DNA of 64,000 nucleotides, from the NCBI GenBank assembly GCA_900114885.1, contig FOUN01000013.1, positions 1 to 64,000 of the forward strand. Reading direction: 5' to 3'. Positions within the stretch are counted from its first letter, which is position 1; each line of letters starts with the position of its first letter. The translations under genes and the position numbers were made by a program. This DNA comes from Psychrobacillus psychrodurans (GTDB lineage Bacteria > Bacillota > Bacilli > Bacillales_A > Planococcaceae). The notes beneath the pieces were generated by a model. The model was not told the origin of the DNA, searched no databases, and was given only the letters and a program-made list of their open reading frames with translations. Shown piece by piece: positions 4,043-60,849 of this stretch.

Positions 4043-4194
4043 AATTTTTCTCTCCTTTAAAAGAATCCAATCTCAATTTTAGCATAAATTTATGGCTAAA
4101 TGTGTGCTGAAATGTGTAGAAAGATGTATGATTAAGGGTAGAGTAATTTAATTAAACTAGATAAAAGAGTAGTTATTAAACGGAGGTCATATTT
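4043..4194. promoter_or_regulatory. Divergent menA/menF promoter region
   Basis: A 152-nt AT-rich gap between menA and the menFDHB operon. It must hold both promoters. I see no operator-like palindrome and no convincing -35/-10 pair that I would fix by eye. Confidence 0.5.
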
Positions 4195-11004: not shown

Positions 11005-12165
11005 TTAGTTCAAAACGGTTTTCAATGTCTCTAAGTTTTTGTTCATCAATGTAAAATAATTTTCTTTGTTATTGATATCTTCTTTTGATAATACTCCTAA
11101 GTTGTGTAGAACCAAGCTTTCTGCGCCAATTTCCTTTTGAATCACTTCTGTTAGTTTGGATGAAACATTTTGCTCAAATAAAATATAGTTTATATTTTTT
11201 TCTTCTGCCAAATCGATTAATTTAGTCAGTTCTTTTTGGGATGGTTCATCTTGTGAATTCAGTCCAGCCACTGCTAATTGTTCTAAACCGTATGTGTTCG
11301 CTATATAACCAAATGCAGCGTGAGATACAAAGAAGGTTTTATTTGCTGCTGTATGAGCCATTTCTTCAAAATCTGCATCTAGTTTCTGAAGTTCATTAAC
11401 AAGTTCCTCATAGTTTTTTTCAAAAGTCTCTTGATGTTCAGGTGAAATTTCCACTAAAGAGTCCTTAATAGAAAGTGCAAGGCTTTGACTAATTTTAGGT
11501 GAGATCCAAACATGTGGATCTATATCCCCATGATCATGTCCTTCATGGCTGTCATGCTCTTCAGCCGCTACATCCTCATCCTCGTGATCATGTGCTTCCT
11601 CAGTAGTAGCTTCCTCGTGCTCGTGATCATGTGCTTCCTCAGTAGTAGCTTCCTCGTGCTCGTGATCGTGTGCTTCCTCAGTAGTAGCTTCCTCGTGCTC
11701 GTGATCATGTGCTTCCTCAGTAGTAGCTTCTTCGTGCTCGTGCTCGTGATCATGTGCTTCTTCAGTAGTAGCTTCTTCATGAACGTGATGTGATTCTTCA
11801 AGTTGTTCATCTGATACTGCATCCACAGTAGCTACCATTTTCACATGTTCCTCTGCTAAAGTCTTCTTAGCATTATCGACAAAACCTTCTAAGCCAAGTC
11901 CTATGTAAAAAAACAAGTCAGCATCTGCAAGTGCCATCATATCCTTTTGGGTTGGTTCAAATGTATGTTCATTTGCTCCTGCTGGGTAAATAGATGAGAC
12001 GTTTACAGATTCTCCTCCAATACGTTCAGCAAAGTATTGTAGTGGATACACCGTTGTATATATTTGTACTTGCTGATCTTTAGTTGCAACATTCTCTTCA
12101 TTGTTTCCACAAGCTGCAAGTAACAATAAAAGAAAAAGAATACTTCCTAAACAAATTCGTTTCAA
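11005..12165 (-). CDS. Zinc ABC transporter substrate-binding lipoprotein with expanded His-rich repeat
   Basis: 386 aa from the TTG at 12165 (AGGAGAG 8 nt upstream; the GTG 9 nt earlier is too close to that site). ZnuA/AdcA-type cluster A-1 protein. Lipobox LAAC with lipidated C19. Metal ligands visible at H67 (NEHTFEP), H218 (DPHVW), a His in SHAAFGY and an acidic residue near the C-terminus. The usual His-rich loop between the lobes is blown up to residues 129-195: five tandem 13-15-residue units (EEATTEEAHDHEH). No permease or ATPase gene is adjacent. A Zur-like box lies directly upstream, supporting zinc rather than manganese. Confidence 0.93.
   Translation of the reverse strand: MKRICLGSILFLLLLLAACGNNEENVATKDQQVQIYTTVYPLQYFAERIGGESVNVSSIYPAGANEHTFEPTQKDMMALADADLFFYIGLGLEGFVDNAKKTLAEEHVKMVATVDAVSDEQLEESHHVHEEATTEEAHDHEHEHEEATTEEAHDHEHEEATTEEAHDHEHEEATTEEAHDHEHEEATTEEAHDHEDEDVAAEEHDSHEGHDHGDIDPHVWISPKISQSLALSIKDSLVEISPEHQETFEKNYEELVNELQKLDADFEEMAHTAANKTFFVSHAAFGYIANTYGLEQLAVAGLNSQDEPSQKELTKLIDLAEEKNINYILFEQNVSSKLTEVIQKEIGAESLVLHNLGVLSKEDINNKENYFTLMNKNLETLKTVLN
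11581..11781 (-). repeat. Tandem 39-nt coding minisatellite (His-rich)
   Basis: Five direct repeats of about 39 nt (first unit 45 nt) inside the zinc lipoprotein gene, nearly identical at DNA level, encoding EEATTEEAHDHEH. The DNA identity implies recent expansion by slippage or unequal recombination. Confidence 0.92.
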
Positions 12166-12180
12166 TTTATTCACTCTCCT

Positions 12181-18913: not shown

Positions 18914-19098
18914 ACTCTTATCCCGAGCTGGTGGAGGGGTCAGGCCCTATGAAACCCGGCAACCTGTAATTGTTTTATTATTACAAAGGTGCCAAACCTG
19001 AGACAAGGTGAAATTCCTTGATTTGATAAGAGTGAAAGGTGCTTATGATATTAATACCTTTCCTCATGTGTATTTACGTGAGTGAGAGGTTTTTTTAT
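18914..19098 (+). promoter_or_regulatory. SAM-I riboswitch (S-box) of metK
   Basis: Aptamer 18914-19033: P1 CTCTTATC...GATAAGAG, CGAGCTGGTGGAGGG, CCCTATGAAACCCGGCAACC, then GGTGCCAA. Expression platform: GAAAGGT (19034) can pair with ACCTTTC as antiterminator; the competing stem CCTTTCCTCA/TGAGTGAGAGG followed by TTTTTTT is the terminator. SAM binding should switch metK off. Confidence 0.95.
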
Positions 19099-38793: not shown

Positions 38794-38924
38794 ATTGAAA
38801 CAGCGAAAGTATTGCTTATTTAAGTCAACCCTCTGGACGGCAATTATCACAAAGAGTAATTGATTAAAGTGTAGCTTGTATTTTAATACGGAATCCATTA
38901 TCATAAAAACTAATAGAAGTTGAC

Positions 38925-39152
38925 TGAGATAAGGAATAGTAGATAAATATCGTTTCTTAAGAGAGCTAGCGGTTGGTGCAAGTTAGCGTTACGAATTATT
39001 GAACTCGCCTTTGAGTCTGAATAAGTGAACGATTAGTAGCTTATTCCGTTTTCCGCGTTAAGGAATCAAGTTGAGTGAAGTTTTCACTAATTTGGGTGGT
39101 ACCGCGTGAGTATATCTCTCGTCCCTTAGTTTTTTAAGGGGCGAGTTTTTTT
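38925..39152 (+). promoter_or_regulatory. T-box leader of leuS (Leu specifier CTC)
   Basis: Stem I with AGAGAGCTAGCGGTTGGTGCAAG, specifier GAA-CTC at 39001-39006 (CTC = Leu), T-box motif GGGTGGTACCGCG (39094-39106) and terminator stem CTCGTCCCTTA/TAAGGGGCGAG (39118-39145) with T7. Uncharged tRNA-Leu should stabilise the antiterminator and raise leuS expression. Confidence 0.94.
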
Positions 39153-39293: not shown

Positions 39294-41705
39294 ATGAGCT
39301 TTAACCATGAAGCGATTGAAAAAAAGTGGCAAAAGTATTGGCAGGAAAATAAAACCTATAAAATGACAGATGATCCATCCAAACCAAAATTTTATGCATT
39401 GGATATGTTCCCTTATCCTTCAGGAGTTGGCCTACATGTAGGGCATCCACTTGGATATATTGCAACGGATATATTAAGTGCATTTAAACGTAAACAAGGC
39501 TATAACGTTCTTCACCCAATGGGTTGGGACGCTTTTGGTCTTCCAGCGGAGCAATATGCAATTGATACTGGGAATGATCCCGCAGAATTTACTGCGAAGA
39601 ATATTGCTACATTTAAACGTCAAATGACCGATTTAGGATTTTCATTTGACTGGGATAGAGAAGTCAATACGACGGATCCTTCTTATTATAAATGGACACA
39701 ATGGATTTTCATTCAACTGTACAAAAAAGGTCTAGCATATGTAGATGAAGTGCCAGTAAACTGGTGCCCAGCATTAGGTACTGTTTTGGCTAATGAAGAA
39801 GTAATCGATGGTGTATCCGAGCGTGGGGGACATCCAGTAGAACGCCGTCCAATGCGTCAATGGGTGCTTCGTATAACTGCTTATGCAGACAGACTTTTAG
39901 AGGATTTAGATGATCTTGACTGGCCGGATAGCTTAAAAGAAATGCAACGTAATTGGATTGGACGTTCAGAAGGTGCAGAGCTTACATTTGAGGTAGCTGA
40001 AACTAACGAATCATTCCGAGCATTTACAACTAGACCAGACACTATTTTTGGTGCAACGTATGCAGTATTAGCACCTGAGCATAAGCTTGTGGATGTCATC
40101 ACAACTGCTGACCAATCAGAAGCAGTGCAAGCTTATAAAGATCAAGTGAAACTAAAAAGTGACTTAGAACGTACAGATTTAGCAAAACATAAAACAGGTG
40201 TATTTACAGGTGCTTATGCGGTTAACCCGGTAAGTGGGGAGAAAATGCCGATTTGGATTGCAGATTATGTGTTAGCTACTTATGGAACAGGTGCAATTAT
40301 GGCAGTTCCTGCACATGATGAGCGCGACTATGAGTTTGCGAAACAATTTGACTTGCCAATAGTGGAAGTAGTTTCTGGTGGAGACATCGAAAAAGAAGCT
40401 TACACAGCAGATGGTACACTTGTTAACTCAGAGTTCTTGAATGGCTTAAATAAACAAGAAGCAATAGCAAAGGCTATTCAATGGTTTGAAGCGAATGGTA
40501 AAGGTGAGAAGAAAATTACGTATCGTCTACGTGATTGGTTATTCAGCCGTCAGCGCTATTGGGGCGAGCCAATTCCAATTATCCATTGGGAGGATGGTAC
40601 TTCGACACCTGTAGATGAGTCTGAATTACCATTAATGCTTCCGGTAACAACAGATATTAAACCGAGTGGAACAGGTGAATCACCATTAGCTAATATTACC
40701 GAATGGGTAAATGTTGTAGATCCAGTAACAGGTAAAAAAGGTCGTCGTGAGACTAATACTATGCCACAGTGGGCGGGTAGCTGTTGGTATTACCTTCGTT
40801 ATATTGATCCAAATAATAATGAGGCCCTTGTCGATCCAGAACTAGCGAAACGTTGGCTTCCAGTTGACATTTATGTAGGTGGAGCAGAGCATGCAGTACT
40901 TCATTTATTGTACGCACGTTTCTGGCATAAGTTCCTTTATGATATTGGTGTTGTTACTACGAAAGAGCCATTCCAAAAACTATTTAATCAAGGAATGATT
41001 CTTGGTGAAGGTAATGAGAAAATGTCTAAATCAAAAGGGAATGTAGTAAACCCTGATGATATTGTAAAAAGTCATGGTGCCGATTCACTTCGTCTATACG
41101 AAATGTTCATGGGTCCACTGGACTCTTCGAAGCCATGGTCAACAAACGGTTTAGATGGTTCAAGAAGATTCCTTGATCGTATATGGCGTTTACTTGTCGA
41201 TGAAGATGGTAAGTTGAGTTCTAAAGTTACGGACATTTCTTCTGATAATATGGAAAAAGCGTATCACCAAACTGTTAAAAAAGTAACGGAAGACTTTGAA
41301 GCAATGCATTATAATACTGCCATTTCGCAAATGATGGTATTTATCAATGAAGGCTATAAAGCAGAGCAAATTTCTAAAGAGTATGTAGAAGGATTTGTGA
41401 AGCTTATTTCTCCAATCGTTCCACATATTGCGGAAGAGCTTTGGAGCATTCTTGGACATGATGATACAATCGTTTATGAATCTTGGCCAACTTTCGACGA
41501 ATCTAAGTTGGTAGACAATGAAGTAGAAATTCCTGTTCAAATTAAAGGAAAAGTCCGTGCGAAATTACATGTTGCTAAAGATGCGACAAAAGAAGAGCTG
41601 GAAGCATTAGCTCTTGCTTCTGAACAAGTGCAACAATGGTTGGAAGGTCAAGAAGTGAAGAAAATAATTGCGATCCCAGGTAAAATGGTCAATATCGTAA
41701 TCTAA
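39294..41705 (+). CDS. leuS: Leucyl-tRNA synthetase
   Basis: 803 aa, class I. HIGH motif as [16 protein letters not shown] (about 41-56), KMSKS as [13 protein letters not shown] (about 577-589), CP1 editing domain between ([14 protein letters not shown]), and the anticodon-binding helical domain at the end. AAGGAGGAG site. Standard length for the bacterial enzyme. Confidence 0.98.
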
Positions 41706-41740
41706 TGTAGGTTTTAAAAGAAGTTATAATAAGAATAAAT

Positions 41741-41786
41741 AAAACATCTCACCTCTATAAGTTTCTTAGAGGTGAGATGTTTTTTC
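41741..41786 (+). terminator. leuS terminator
   Basis: Stem AACATCTCACCTCT / AGAGGTGAGATGTT with T6. Confidence 0.92.
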
Positions 41787-41842
41787 GATTATCCAAATTA
41801 CACTGTGAATAAATAAATATTTTTGGGAAAAATATCCGTTTA

Positions 41843-41968
41843 GCAAGTAAAAAGCGTTAGAGCGCAAGTAAATATAGACAAAGAGCAAGTAAACCCTTTA
41901 CGATCACAAGTAAGCTACAGGTAGAAGCAAGTAAACAAAAGGTGAAAGCAAGTAAACATATAAAAGAA
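41843..41968. repeat. 21-nt periodic array 1 (six GCAAGTAAA cores)
   Basis: Cores start at 41843, 41864, 41885, 41906, 41927 and 41948, so every interval is exactly 21 nt. Five cores read GCAAGTAAA; the fourth is ACAAGTAAG. The 12 nt between cores vary. It sits between convergent leuS and the anti-sigma gene. A second array at 60724 has the same core, period and copy number. Not coding: all three forward frames are stopped. The remaining sequence to 42111 has nothing I can identify. Confidence 0.9.
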
Positions 41969-42111
41969 TCAAAACGATCGAAAAGACAAGAAAGCATATG
42001 TAACTTGAGTGCACAAAGTCAGTCTTTCTGGTACTTTGAATGCTCAAGAACCAATTTGATCAGTTCTTGTAAATTTGAAGTCATTATACTTTTGCTTCCA
42101 TATAATTTAAA

Positions 42112-49194: not shown

Positions 49195-49445
49195 AACACA
49201 AAAAGGCCCTCCATCAAAGGACGGAGAGCCGTGGTGCCACCTTTATTGATCACTATTGTAATCCACTTATTGCAACCAAACAGTTGCTAGTCCTATAACG
49301 TAGACGAACGCCAAAACCTACTGAAACTAATTGTTCAGCCTTGGAGCTAAGAAGTCCATTCACTTTATAGCTTGCACTGACTTGCACCACCGTCAGCTCT
49401 CTGAAGCAATTCATAAAGCTACTATTCTTCCTCATCGCTTGTTAT
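49195..49445 (-). promoter_or_regulatory. T-box leader of trpEG (Trp specifier TGG)
   Basis: On the minus strand: stem I with AGAGAGCTGACGGTGGTGCAAG, specifier GAA-TGG (TGG complement at 49356-49358, Trp), T-box motif AGGTGGCACCACGG (49229-49242), and a terminator stem GGCTCTCC/GGAGGGCC followed by TTTTTG (49196-49230). So trpEG is induced by uncharged tRNA-Trp and not by TRAP. Confidence 0.94.
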
Positions 49446-53704: not shown

Positions 53705-54214
53705 GATATCTCTTGGCTAGACTAGCGGACGACTTGGGTGAAAAGCAACTGAGTAATTGCAATTTACAGCCCCTTTACTAAATTGTAGTCAAAATATTTA
53801 CTTTCTGACAATTCCATTATAGTAGATTTCAATTGAAATTTCTATAGAAATTATGATATTTACAAATAATTCACATTTCTTTTTAGTTTTGGAACAGGCT
53901 ATTAAAACATTAAAATCAGCGTTATCTAAGTATTTTAAGAGCACCAAATACTGTCTAGGAATAAAAAGGATGATATTTTCCTTTCGCAAATAAAACCCTT
54001 TTGGAAGTAAGTAAAAAATATTGAGAGCAATTAGACTAGCGTGTAAAGAAACAAAATTCCAAATTAAAGTAAATAATTGATAAGCCAAAGTAATAAATCC
54101 TCTTCAGGACGTTGATCAAAGTTTAAAACAGGCCATTAATTACCTTCTTTTTTTGTGTCTTAAGCTATAAAAAGTGTAAAATGGAATATAAGTATTATTT
54201 AGGAGGAAGCAAAT
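53705..54214. other. 510-nt gap between ytzE and pepV
   Basis: AT-rich. Holds one weak minus-strand ORF (53798-54088) and the pepV promoter. The segment TAAGCTATAAAAAGTGTAAAATGG (54160-54183) before the AGGAGGAAG site may include the -10. No repeat family of this window is present. Confidence 0.5.
53798..54088 (-). CDS. Doubtful 96-aa ORF
   Basis: TTG start with GAAGAGG about 9 nt upstream. Hydrophobic first half, then FIPRQYLVLLKYLDNADFNVLIACSKTKKKCELF and an Ile-rich tail. Reads a little like a protein, but the Ile/Lys-rich AT-driven composition of the tail and the TTG start make it uncertain. No family recognised. Confidence 0.3.
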   Translation of the reverse strand: MAYQLFTLIWNFVSLHASLIALNIFYLLPKGFYLRKENIILFIPRQYLVLLKYLDNADFNVLIACSKTKKKCELFVNIIISIEISIEIYYNGIVRK

Positions 54215-59765: not shown

Positions 59766-60611
59766 ATGGACACGTTTAAATTTCATGAAATGTCATTCAC
59801 ATGGTTAAAGGGAGGAACAACTTTTATGGACGGGGGTGCCATGTTTGGAGTTGTTCCAAAACCATTATGGGAAAAGAAATATCCTGTCAATGAGAAAAAT
59901 CAAATTGAACTACCTTCAGATCCACTACTAGTCCAATATAAAGGGCAGAATATTTTACTGGAATCAGGTCTTGGTTACCGAAAAATGACTGAGAAACAAT
60001 TACGAAACTATGGTGTTACGGATCAATCTCAAGTGGAAGATAATCTTGTAGAATTAGGATTATTACCTGAAGACATCCATCTTATCATGATGACTCATCT
60101 CCATTTTGATCACGCTTGTGGCCTGACAAAATGGGGAGGAGACCAAATAGTATCTACATTTCCAAATGCCAAAATATATGTTTCTGATGTTGAATGGAAT
60201 GAGATGAAAAATCCCAATATTCGTTCTAAAAATACGTACTGGAAAGAAAACTGGGAGGCAATTGAGAGTCAAGTTATACCATTCACTAATTCTTTCGAGG
60301 TAATAGAAGGTATCGAAATGATTCATACTGGAGGTCATAGTGACGGACATAGTATTGTTGTATTTAAGCAAGCAGAAGATACTATCATACATATGGCAGA
60401 TCTAATGCCCACACATGCACACCAAAACCCACTATGGGTGCTTGCATACGATGATTATCCAATGACATCTATATATGCAAAAGAAAAATGGGTCAAACAA
60501 GCACTTCAACATAATTACTGGTTCAGCTTCTACCATGATGCTTTCTATCGAATGATCAAATGGTCTGAAGATGGAAAAGAAATAATGGATATAGTGGAGA
60601 GAAGTCGGTAA
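59766..60611 (+). CDS. ytnP: MBL-fold lactonase (YtnP)
   Basis: 281 aa metallo-beta-lactamase fold. Dinuclear zinc motif HLHFDHACG (about 114-122), further ligands His in [11 protein letters not shown] and Asp in [12 protein letters not shown]. subtilis YtnP is a quorum-quenching lactonase that also degrades a Streptomyces signal. AGGGGG site is supplied by repeat G. Lactone substrate by analogy. Confidence 0.92.
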
Positions 60612-60612
60612 A

Positions 60613-60657
60613 TAAAAAACGAGCAGTGACATTTAGTCATAGCTCGTTTTTTATTTT
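60613..60657 (+). terminator. ytnP terminator
   Basis: Stem AAAAAACGAGC / GCTCGTTTTTT with a 17-nt loop. Confidence 0.88.
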
Positions 60658-60723
60658 TGTGAATAATTAGCCAATCAAAAGTTCGAATGGATTAGAAAAA
60701 GAAGTGGATAAATTTACCTTTTT

Positions 60724-60849
60724 GCAAGTAAATCACCTTGGAGTGCAAGTAAACACACGATGACCACAAGTAACTTATAAAGGAAAGCAAGGAAATTTCT
60801 CGTTAGAGCAAGTATTTGGCGGTTTTACGCAAGTAAATAGCCTTAGAGA
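60724..60849. repeat. 21-nt periodic array 2 (six GCAAGTAAA-type cores)
   Basis: Cores start at 60724, 60745, 60766, 60787, 60808 and 60829, all exactly 21 nt apart. Reads GCAAGTAAA in units 1, 2 and 6; variants are ACAAGTAAC (3), GCAAGGAAA (4) and GCAAGTATT (5). It lies between convergent ytnP and ytzB. Unit 3's ACAAG variant parallels unit 4 of array 1. Frames carry stops. Confidence 0.88.

Follow-up and report, generated by a model that had tools for sequence, protein, structure and literature searches.

Dispersed six-core arrays with a 21-nt period behind gene ends in Psychrobacillus psychrodurans and other Bacillales: possible phased sites for a DNA-binding factor

The row of short repeats that lies behind leuS in Psychrobacillus psychrodurans is a single copy of an element dispersed in the genome, in which a leader of about 20 nt precedes six GCAAGTAA cores spaced 21 nt apart. 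This copy is contained in the 64,000-nt stretch of DNA analysed here as a whole, called the window below. An earlier note on this DNA, made from the letters alone, drew attention to the row but overlooked the defined element to which it belongs, with its leader, preferred core number and typical place. With a confidence that falls just short of even, we favour the reading of a dispersed, likely non-coding Bacillales element whose helically phased sites for a DNA-binding factor would form a boundary at the 3' ends of genes.

Re-reading of the sequence returned the six cores at exact 21-nt steps (41843, 41864, 41885, 41906, 41927 and 41948); five of them read GCAAGTAAA and the fourth reads ACAAGTAAG. 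The open reading frame upstream is one that we take to be leuS (Table 1). The array at 60724, described in the earlier note as almost identical in layout, does have six units (60724, 60745, 60766, 60787, 60808 and 60829), but three of its cores are degenerate (ACAAGTAA, GCAAGGAA and GCAAGTAT). By eye, a leader-like GGATGATATTTTCCTTTC stands just 5' of a candidate decayed third array. Pairs of the form CAAGTAA-N14-CAAGTAA with up to 2 mismatches number 18 in the window, 10 of which make up the arrays at 41843 and 60724, whereas 100 shuffles led to an expectation of 1.07 and never gave more than 4; the core at 21 nt is thus by no means as common in shuffled sequence, a doubt that the earlier note had itself raised. 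Apart from the arrays, the window carries the end of a 5S rRNA and a large cluster of tRNAs (1-2024), a SAM riboswitch (18915-19032), T-box leaders at 38917-39129 and 49214-49444 and, inside the ORF 11005-12174 (-), a 39-nt tandem repeat of 5.4 copies (11573-11789) that is probably a different, coding repeat.

Table 1. Arrays and neighbouring features in the window
Feature	Position	Strand	Basis
Six-core array, GCAAGTAA(A) per 21 nt	41843..41956	+	sequence, pair counts, paralogue alignment, unit count
Conserved leader, consensus TTTGG-N-AAAATTATCC-N-TTTC, adjoining core 1	41822..41842	+	alignment of paralogous arrays
leuS terminator: 14-bp inverted repeat ACATCTCACCTCTA/TAGAGGTGAGATGT, then T6; 9-nt loop	41744..41785	+	by eye
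leuS (leucyl-tRNA synthetase, presumed), gene upstream of the array	39294..41705	+	ORF; T-box leader 38917-39129
Second six-unit array	60724..60837	+	sequence, pair counts, paralogue alignment
Leader of the second array	60703..60723	+	sequence, paralogue alignment
Intrinsic terminator of ORF 59766-60611: ACGAGC...GCTCGT + T tract	60619..60652	+	
Candidate decayed third array	53986..54093	+	cores GCAAATAA, GTAAGTAA, GCAATTAG and weaker ones; by eye

Searched across the whole genome, as the earlier note had proposed, the core recurs at 21 nt in 409 pairs (up to 1 mismatch) versus 7 in a reversed-pattern control, and in 265 triples (up to 2 mismatches) versus none in the control. Anatomy was examined in 37 stretches of this genome around arrays among the matches listed, a subset of the genomic arrays that comprises 46 arrays with flanks; at least three further array places beyond these stretches appear among the exact core pairs listed, and more than 40 array places were sampled. 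In most of the 46 arrays, the leader abuts core 1 and six cores follow. A count of copies per array, allowing 2 mismatches per core, gave six units in 26 of 33 stand-alone arrays, the remainder having four units (one array), five (two), seven (three) or forming a cluster of 40 (one). Six is also the number in 14 of 20 stand-alone arrays of the relative G138 and in 23 of 31 from Fictibacillus (two genomes with 28 loci, the full yield of the search of GTDB contigs), where the leader reads TTATGAAAATGATGTGTTTT.

Most blocks in clusters have six cores (27 of 47). Clusters have joints that are near-constant within a cluster (79, 81, 122, 70-72 or 61-63 nt), and they arise via duplication of larger blocks. 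Long clusters of this kind, mainly repeated six-core blocks, are seen on contigs C25, C8 and C12 of P. psychrodurans (L125, L142, L145 and L148), those of L142 being partly split by a weak core.

The earlier note had argued that the array is not simple slippage of a 21-nt unit. This holds for the six-core element, for which slippage is rejected: the spacers are unlike one another within an array and recur in the same order in paralogous arrays. In a subset that we call type A, the ordered spacers are common to different loci, together with about 80 nt upstream and about 70 nt downstream. Identity among 12 type A copies of exact geometry amounts to 0.96 in the cores, 0.67 in the spacers, 0.75 in the leader and 0.45-0.51 in the flanks, and eight other arrays of the same genome are alike in leader and cores only (core 0.95, spacer 0.43, leader 0.66, flanks 0.30).

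The latter eight arrays bear on the idea of sequence-agnostic wrapping, of gyrase or HU type, in which helical phase alone would count and the core would drift by concerted evolution. A constant period with cores that differ between lineages, a length of about 130 nt and a location at 3' ends, where supercoils gather, would all suit such wrapping. Nevertheless, the exact word is kept in these arrays despite unrelated spacers, and conversion would homogenise the spacers as well, so that we regard this explanation as quite improbable.

Between consecutive cores of P. psychrodurans (up to 1 mismatch, no step limit), the step is 21 nt in 333 cases, 20 nt in 24 and 19 nt in 6, with single cases of 18, 22 and 24 nt; distances of 12-17, 29-30 and 36-70 nt are also present in small numbers. 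Among the matches listed, exact core pairs 12-42 nt apart occur only at 20, 21, 38, 40, 41 and 42 nt. Steps of 31-32 nt, which would keep the same helical face, are seen neither in the stretches of this genome nor among the exact core pairs listed, so that the spacing appears to belong to a fixed module and to be more than a matter of whole helical turns. The earlier proposal that protein sites line up along one side of the helix is the best fit, short of proof, with the qualification that the spacing looks fixed rather than counted in turns. Other regular steps are seen elsewhere: an array of Neobacillus niacini (L047, 834-1063) has 12 GCAAGTAA units mostly at 20 instead of 21 nt, and large GCAAGTAA/GCAAATAA arrays of Ureibacillus acetophenoni (L032, L079, L083 and L107) have runs of 21 nt that alternate with regular steps of 18, 39 and 60 nt.

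As to position relative to gene ends, a further point raised in the earlier note, the arrays are mostly intergenic; they follow the 3' end of the gene upstream and point the same way as that gene. When gaps around arrays of three or more cores were classed with a simple hexamer-scored ORF caller, 43 of 44 arrays of P. psychrodurans (one lies at a stretch edge) fell into 18 convergent, 22 co-directional and 3 divergent gaps, and 21 of 29 from Fictibacillus (seven at edges, one overlapping a predicted ORF) into 9, 8 and 4, which places 27 of the 64 classified arrays between convergent genes. Convergent gaps are over-represented (18/43 versus 14/77 array-free gaps of at least 150 nt in P. psychrodurans, p=0.009; Fictibacillus, p=0.04), and divergent gaps are depleted in P. 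psychrodurans (p=0.014; Fictibacillus, p=0.56). Orientation can be judged from co-directional gaps alone, since in a convergent gap either orientation counts as with the upstream gene; in such gaps the array points with the genes in 18 of 22 cases in P. psychrodurans and in all eight in Fictibacillus (pooled 26/30, p=6e-5).

A terminator-like hairpin with a T tract is found within 150 nt upstream of 16 of 20 Fictibacillus arrays and 18 of 46 arrays of P. psychrodurans, compared with 12/176 and 14/368 random positions, respectively (4-7%), and with 1/20 and 5/46 on the downstream side of the arrays, opposite strand. As random positions are mostly coding, the contrast between the two sides is the fairer control (p=0.003 in P. 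psychrodurans). No terminator was detected within 150 nt upstream of 28 of the 46 arrays, nor within 250 nt of 21 of them, and the upstream hairpins also qualify as reverse-strand terminators in 13/46 arrays of P. psychrodurans and 8/20 of Fictibacillus.

Because arrays sit behind gene ends, many of them in convergent gaps, a boundary role at 3' ends rather than promoter regulation suggests itself. An exact, asymmetric word that recurs every two turns in a preferred number of copies, between free spacers of near-fixed length, leads us to infer cooperative assembly of a protein. A sequence-specific DNA-binding protein would sit on one face of the DNA and assemble over about six sites, and the resulting filament or wrap would constitute a 3'-end boundary that stops read-through or antisense polymerase. 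Alternatively, the boundary could act by anchoring or absorbing transcription-driven supercoils.

The same placement is compatible with a signal at the RNA level, namely six words in read-through RNA that a lineage-specific RNA-binding protein or RNase would bind or cut, clearing escaped RNA. In line with this notion, arrays are sense to the upstream gene, often just beyond its terminator, and the cores are asymmetric and in one orientation. Single-stranded RNA, however, needs no exact two-turn spacing. Moreover, the window array, the one array that was folded, gives z = -0.01 and -0.13 on the two strands, and Rfam yields no match at the arrays at gathering score; the region 41700-42110 has weak sub-threshold matches only, over the terminator hairpin. 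An RNA hairpin or a known RNA is rejected for the window array on these grounds, and we consider an RNA-level signal improbable.

A period of 21 nt also equals seven codons, and a coding repeat of heptapeptides, degraded or real, has to be weighed. The earlier note had stated that the forward frames are stopped, and in P. psychrodurans the stops in 139 unique units indeed number 58, 55 and 169 by forward frame, where column shuffles predict 51, 64 and 159; the first two values of each series refer to the GCA-AGT and CAA-GTA frames. Odd intervals in this genome are mainly of 19-20 nt and break the frame (30, versus two of 18 or 24 nt), and the core has no third-position freedom, an observation that is partly circular because arrays were chosen by core pattern. 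The element is most likely non-coding in this genome, where the degraded coding repeat that the earlier note had named as a possible alternative is unlikely.

Matters are less clear in Fictibacillus and Ureibacillus, where leaders resembling start codons and open arrays that keep the frame, respectively, speak for coding. An ATG, GTG or TTG stands 18 nt before core 1, in frame, in 25 of 29 Fictibacillus leaders, 22 of the 29 being free of in-frame stops, and the stops in two forward frames fall under the column-shuffled range (3 versus 10-27, and 119 versus 121-140), an expectation that is too high as the columns were treated as independent and the spacer ends form two correlated classes. On the other hand, seven of the 29 leaders do contain in-frame stops and no ribosome-binding site is evident by eye. 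The odd intervals of Ureibacillus are mostly the frame-preserving 18, 39 and 60 nt, and four frames of L083 (918 nt, 40 cores) and one of L032 (4105-4715) are stop-free, but stops occur in every forward frame of L040, L079 and the first array of L032, and duplicated blocks can copy open frames. Some U. acetophenoni arrays keep one frame, stop-free over 600-900 nt, and arrays may in places be annotated as small hypothetical proteins. On balance, we deem a coding repeat very improbable as an explanation of the element.

Relatives of P. psychrodurans were searched as well, and arrays are present in congeners, G138 among them, in Fictibacillus and in other Bacillales. Five orthologous array pairs between P. 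psychrodurans and G138 differ at 7 of 200 aligned core positions, 41 of 261 spacer positions and 160 of 905 flank positions (core versus spacer, Fisher p=1e-5); this count omits the long cluster L148/L254 as well as 8 core and 12 spacer positions in gaps, carries some ascertainment bias as the pairs were found via the core pattern, and includes two pairs whose flanks align poorly. Since arrays of both genomes were picked by core pattern, core conservation and lack of wobble are partly circular there. This does not apply to the leuS set or to the de novo scan, both described below.

The C-terminal 200 aa of leuS find a match in all 19 genomes of the genus, that of P. psychrodurans included, and the region 3' of the gene holds a periodic array in seven genomes and none in 12. 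The period is 21 in all seven (scan 12-30), and the cores form dialects: CAAGTAA in one genome, CAACTAA in five and CAAGGTT in one. Four gapless CAACTAA arrays, the fifth having lost a unit and being left out, are 0.97 identical in the cores and 0.72 in the spacers. In G126 (L168), the 21-nt array of this slot has a quite different, GTGCAAGGTT-like word.

Genome-wide, CAACTAA triples occur in 13 of the 19 genomes, with 28-96 in each of G129, G131, G132, G133, G137 and G140, and only 0-2 in P. psychrodurans (G000), G138 and G136; the two of P. psychrodurans belong to a GCAAGTAA array with one variant core. Such dialects would arise if the specificity of the protein drifted and the genomic sites followed. 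They are not strictly exclusive, because G125 holds both 81 GCAAGTAA and 8 CAACTAA triples, and ATTCCAACTAA and GAGAGCAACTAA arrays are mixed in G131. The presence of more than one dialect in some genomes is awkward for a single factor.

Individual arrays come and go. None is found behind leuS in G138 and G136; G138 carries an array within a block of about 260 nt that P. psychrodurans lacks (L262 versus L142); nothing in L122 of P. psychrodurans corresponds to the G138 array L256; and the slot L124/L266 holds arrays in both species with unrelated spacers. Arrays are thus gained and lost between sister species, as mobile repeats are.

The main rival of a protein-bound boundary element is a selfish, non-autonomous mobile repeat, whose cores would be transposase or recombinase sites, whose insertion behind terminators would always have the same orientation and whose dialects would be families. 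The differing presence of arrays between sister species, the unrelated spacers of the L124/L266 slot, the three dialects in the leuS slot and the common sequence of about 80 nt upstream and about 70 nt downstream in up to 17 type A copies (alignment, by eye) all agree with it. Against mobility, the type A alignment reveals no sharp ends or target duplications, and selection on the cores persists in orthologous arrays, which is not expected of a dead insertion. In addition, two PF01797 (Y1 transposase) genes of the genome, the only transposase family examined, have no core pairs (up to 3 mismatches) within their loci of about 3.3 kb; L277, one Y1 transposase locus, contains one lone exact core. 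We view a mobile repeat as unlikely, yet as an explanation to be taken seriously.

Position along the chromosome was considered in G138, where dnaA lies at 2.197 Mb of a 4.23-Mb contig and the terminus is assumed to lie opposite. Among 30 exact-core arrays (exact matches listed first), two are within 0.55 Mb of the origin, about 8 being expected (C1 is scarce in arrays from 1.65 to 2.75 Mb), and 20 are co-directional with replication. The earlier note had asked for the position relative to the replication terminus; a polarity along the replichores is not borne out by these 20 of 30, and a replichore-polarity motif is rejected under the assumed terminus.

Across the family, 33 of 261 genomes, from 9 of 19 genera, contain GCAAGTAA triples (up to 2 mismatches). 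Of the stretches from GTDB contigs, 62 of 77 come from Bacillales genera, sorted by name, and the other 15 from scattered phyla; those from outside Bacillales are, among the matches listed, mostly near-uniform tandem repeats. Nine stretches with the exact triple were found in viral contigs, several of which look like coding repeats with GCAAGTAATGCAAGTACATCT units. A comb of six CAA-N18 units was rejected as a count: 239 of 261 family genomes match it, but an array whose core contains AAC also fits the reversed control, which accordingly matches many genomes as well.

The de novo scan covered 58 evenly spaced 20-kb stretches (1.16 Mb) of six single-contig assemblies at periods of 12-40; three of the six assemblies had GCAAGTAA arrays known beforehand. 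All ten non-coding arrays of six units had period 21. Under a stricter open-frame mask, period 21 was found in 7/7 six-unit, 7/8 five-unit and 10/11 four-unit non-coding arrays, the exception to 21 having period 20, and open-frame arrays showed periods of 12, 14, 15, 21, 27 and 36. Dinucleotide-block shuffles of the scanned stretches gave no arrays, and neither did the nine scanned stretches of G018. Within the stretches of P. psychrodurans, five-unit non-coding arrays are of GCAAGTAA type with period 21, save one weak period-12 candidate at 4074-4133 of the window. Further dialects are present in 20 stretches from other genera, which were chosen by a period-21 comb and hence biased to 21, and several of these arrays lie, by eye, directly behind a T tract.

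The earlier note knew of no described Bacillales element with such a form, and a search of open-access literature likewise yielded no description. Iterons are rows of direct repeats about two turns apart. Our arrays differ from them in being dispersed over tens of intergenic places on many contigs, with unrelated spacers and away from an origin, and the label iteron-like fails for this dispersion and for the scarcity of arrays near dnaA in G138. Uptake sequences (DUS/USS) are short lineage-specific words, often at terminators, and DUS are single or inverted-paired; the arrays resemble them in having lineage-specific words near terminators and differ in being helically phased rows. KOPS/SRS of FtsK/SpoIIIE are 8-mers oriented along the chromosome, from which the arrays depart by the orientation of the G138 arrays given above. 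CRISPR repeats measure about 21-48 nt, with spacers of similar length, a size that the 9-nt repeat and 12-nt spacer of the arrays do not reach.

REP/BIME elements of Enterobacteria and Pseudomonas, with RAYT transposases, are abundant, dispersed, extragenic and species-specific repeats for which roles in chromosome organisation and transcription termination have been suggested (PMC2817692; PMC12306157). The arrays share with them the extragenic location, the many copies and the species specificity, and the boundary role envisaged here would be the one proposed for REP/BIME elsewhere. In contrast to REP, which are folding palindromes, the arrays are direct repeats of asymmetric, unfolded cores, mostly in sixes; neither a palindrome nor a hairpin is found, with a fold z of about 0 on both strands of the window array and cores in one orientation. 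A REP/RAYT system is rejected, the Y1 transposase genes lacking flanking arrays.

The closest geometry is that of LytTR sites (HdrR, BrsR), 9-bp direct repeats with 11-13 bp between them, of which a pair lies upstream of the -35 element (PMC6193735). Nine plus 12 bp is the 21-bp geometry of the arrays, and some of the sites listed there resemble dialect cores, namely GCAACTTAG and ACCAGTTAT-12-ACCGACTAT of B. cereus (PMC6193735). LytTR sites are described as a pair at a promoter, whereas the arrays line up about six cores past the ends of genes, in many cases where two genes converge; the 27 of 64 arrays in convergent gaps have no downstream gene start before which such a site could be placed. 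Four LytTR genes are present in the genome, and the best core pairs nearby have 4 mismatches in total, with the operon promoters possibly lying outside these loci. LytTR as a reader of the cores is a lead only.

By anatomy, the arrays match none of the families compared; if they are classed with dispersed extragenic repeats, they would be a new form among these. Somewhat more boldly, and with a confidence that stays clearly below even, they might represent an undescribed element class of many Bacillales, a phased array of typically six sites at gene ends and terminators whose word co-evolves with a putative, fast-evolving reader. Such a class would be the counterpart of REP/BIME in Gram-positive bacteria, though constructed in another way. 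A near-fixed period and a preferred copy number in the sampled lineages, combined with a changing word, are the signature of a co-evolving reader. Its identification would establish a new system, whether DNA-organising, termination-linked or mobile, in a large bacterial group, and the dialects constitute natural experiments on the co-evolution of protein and DNA.
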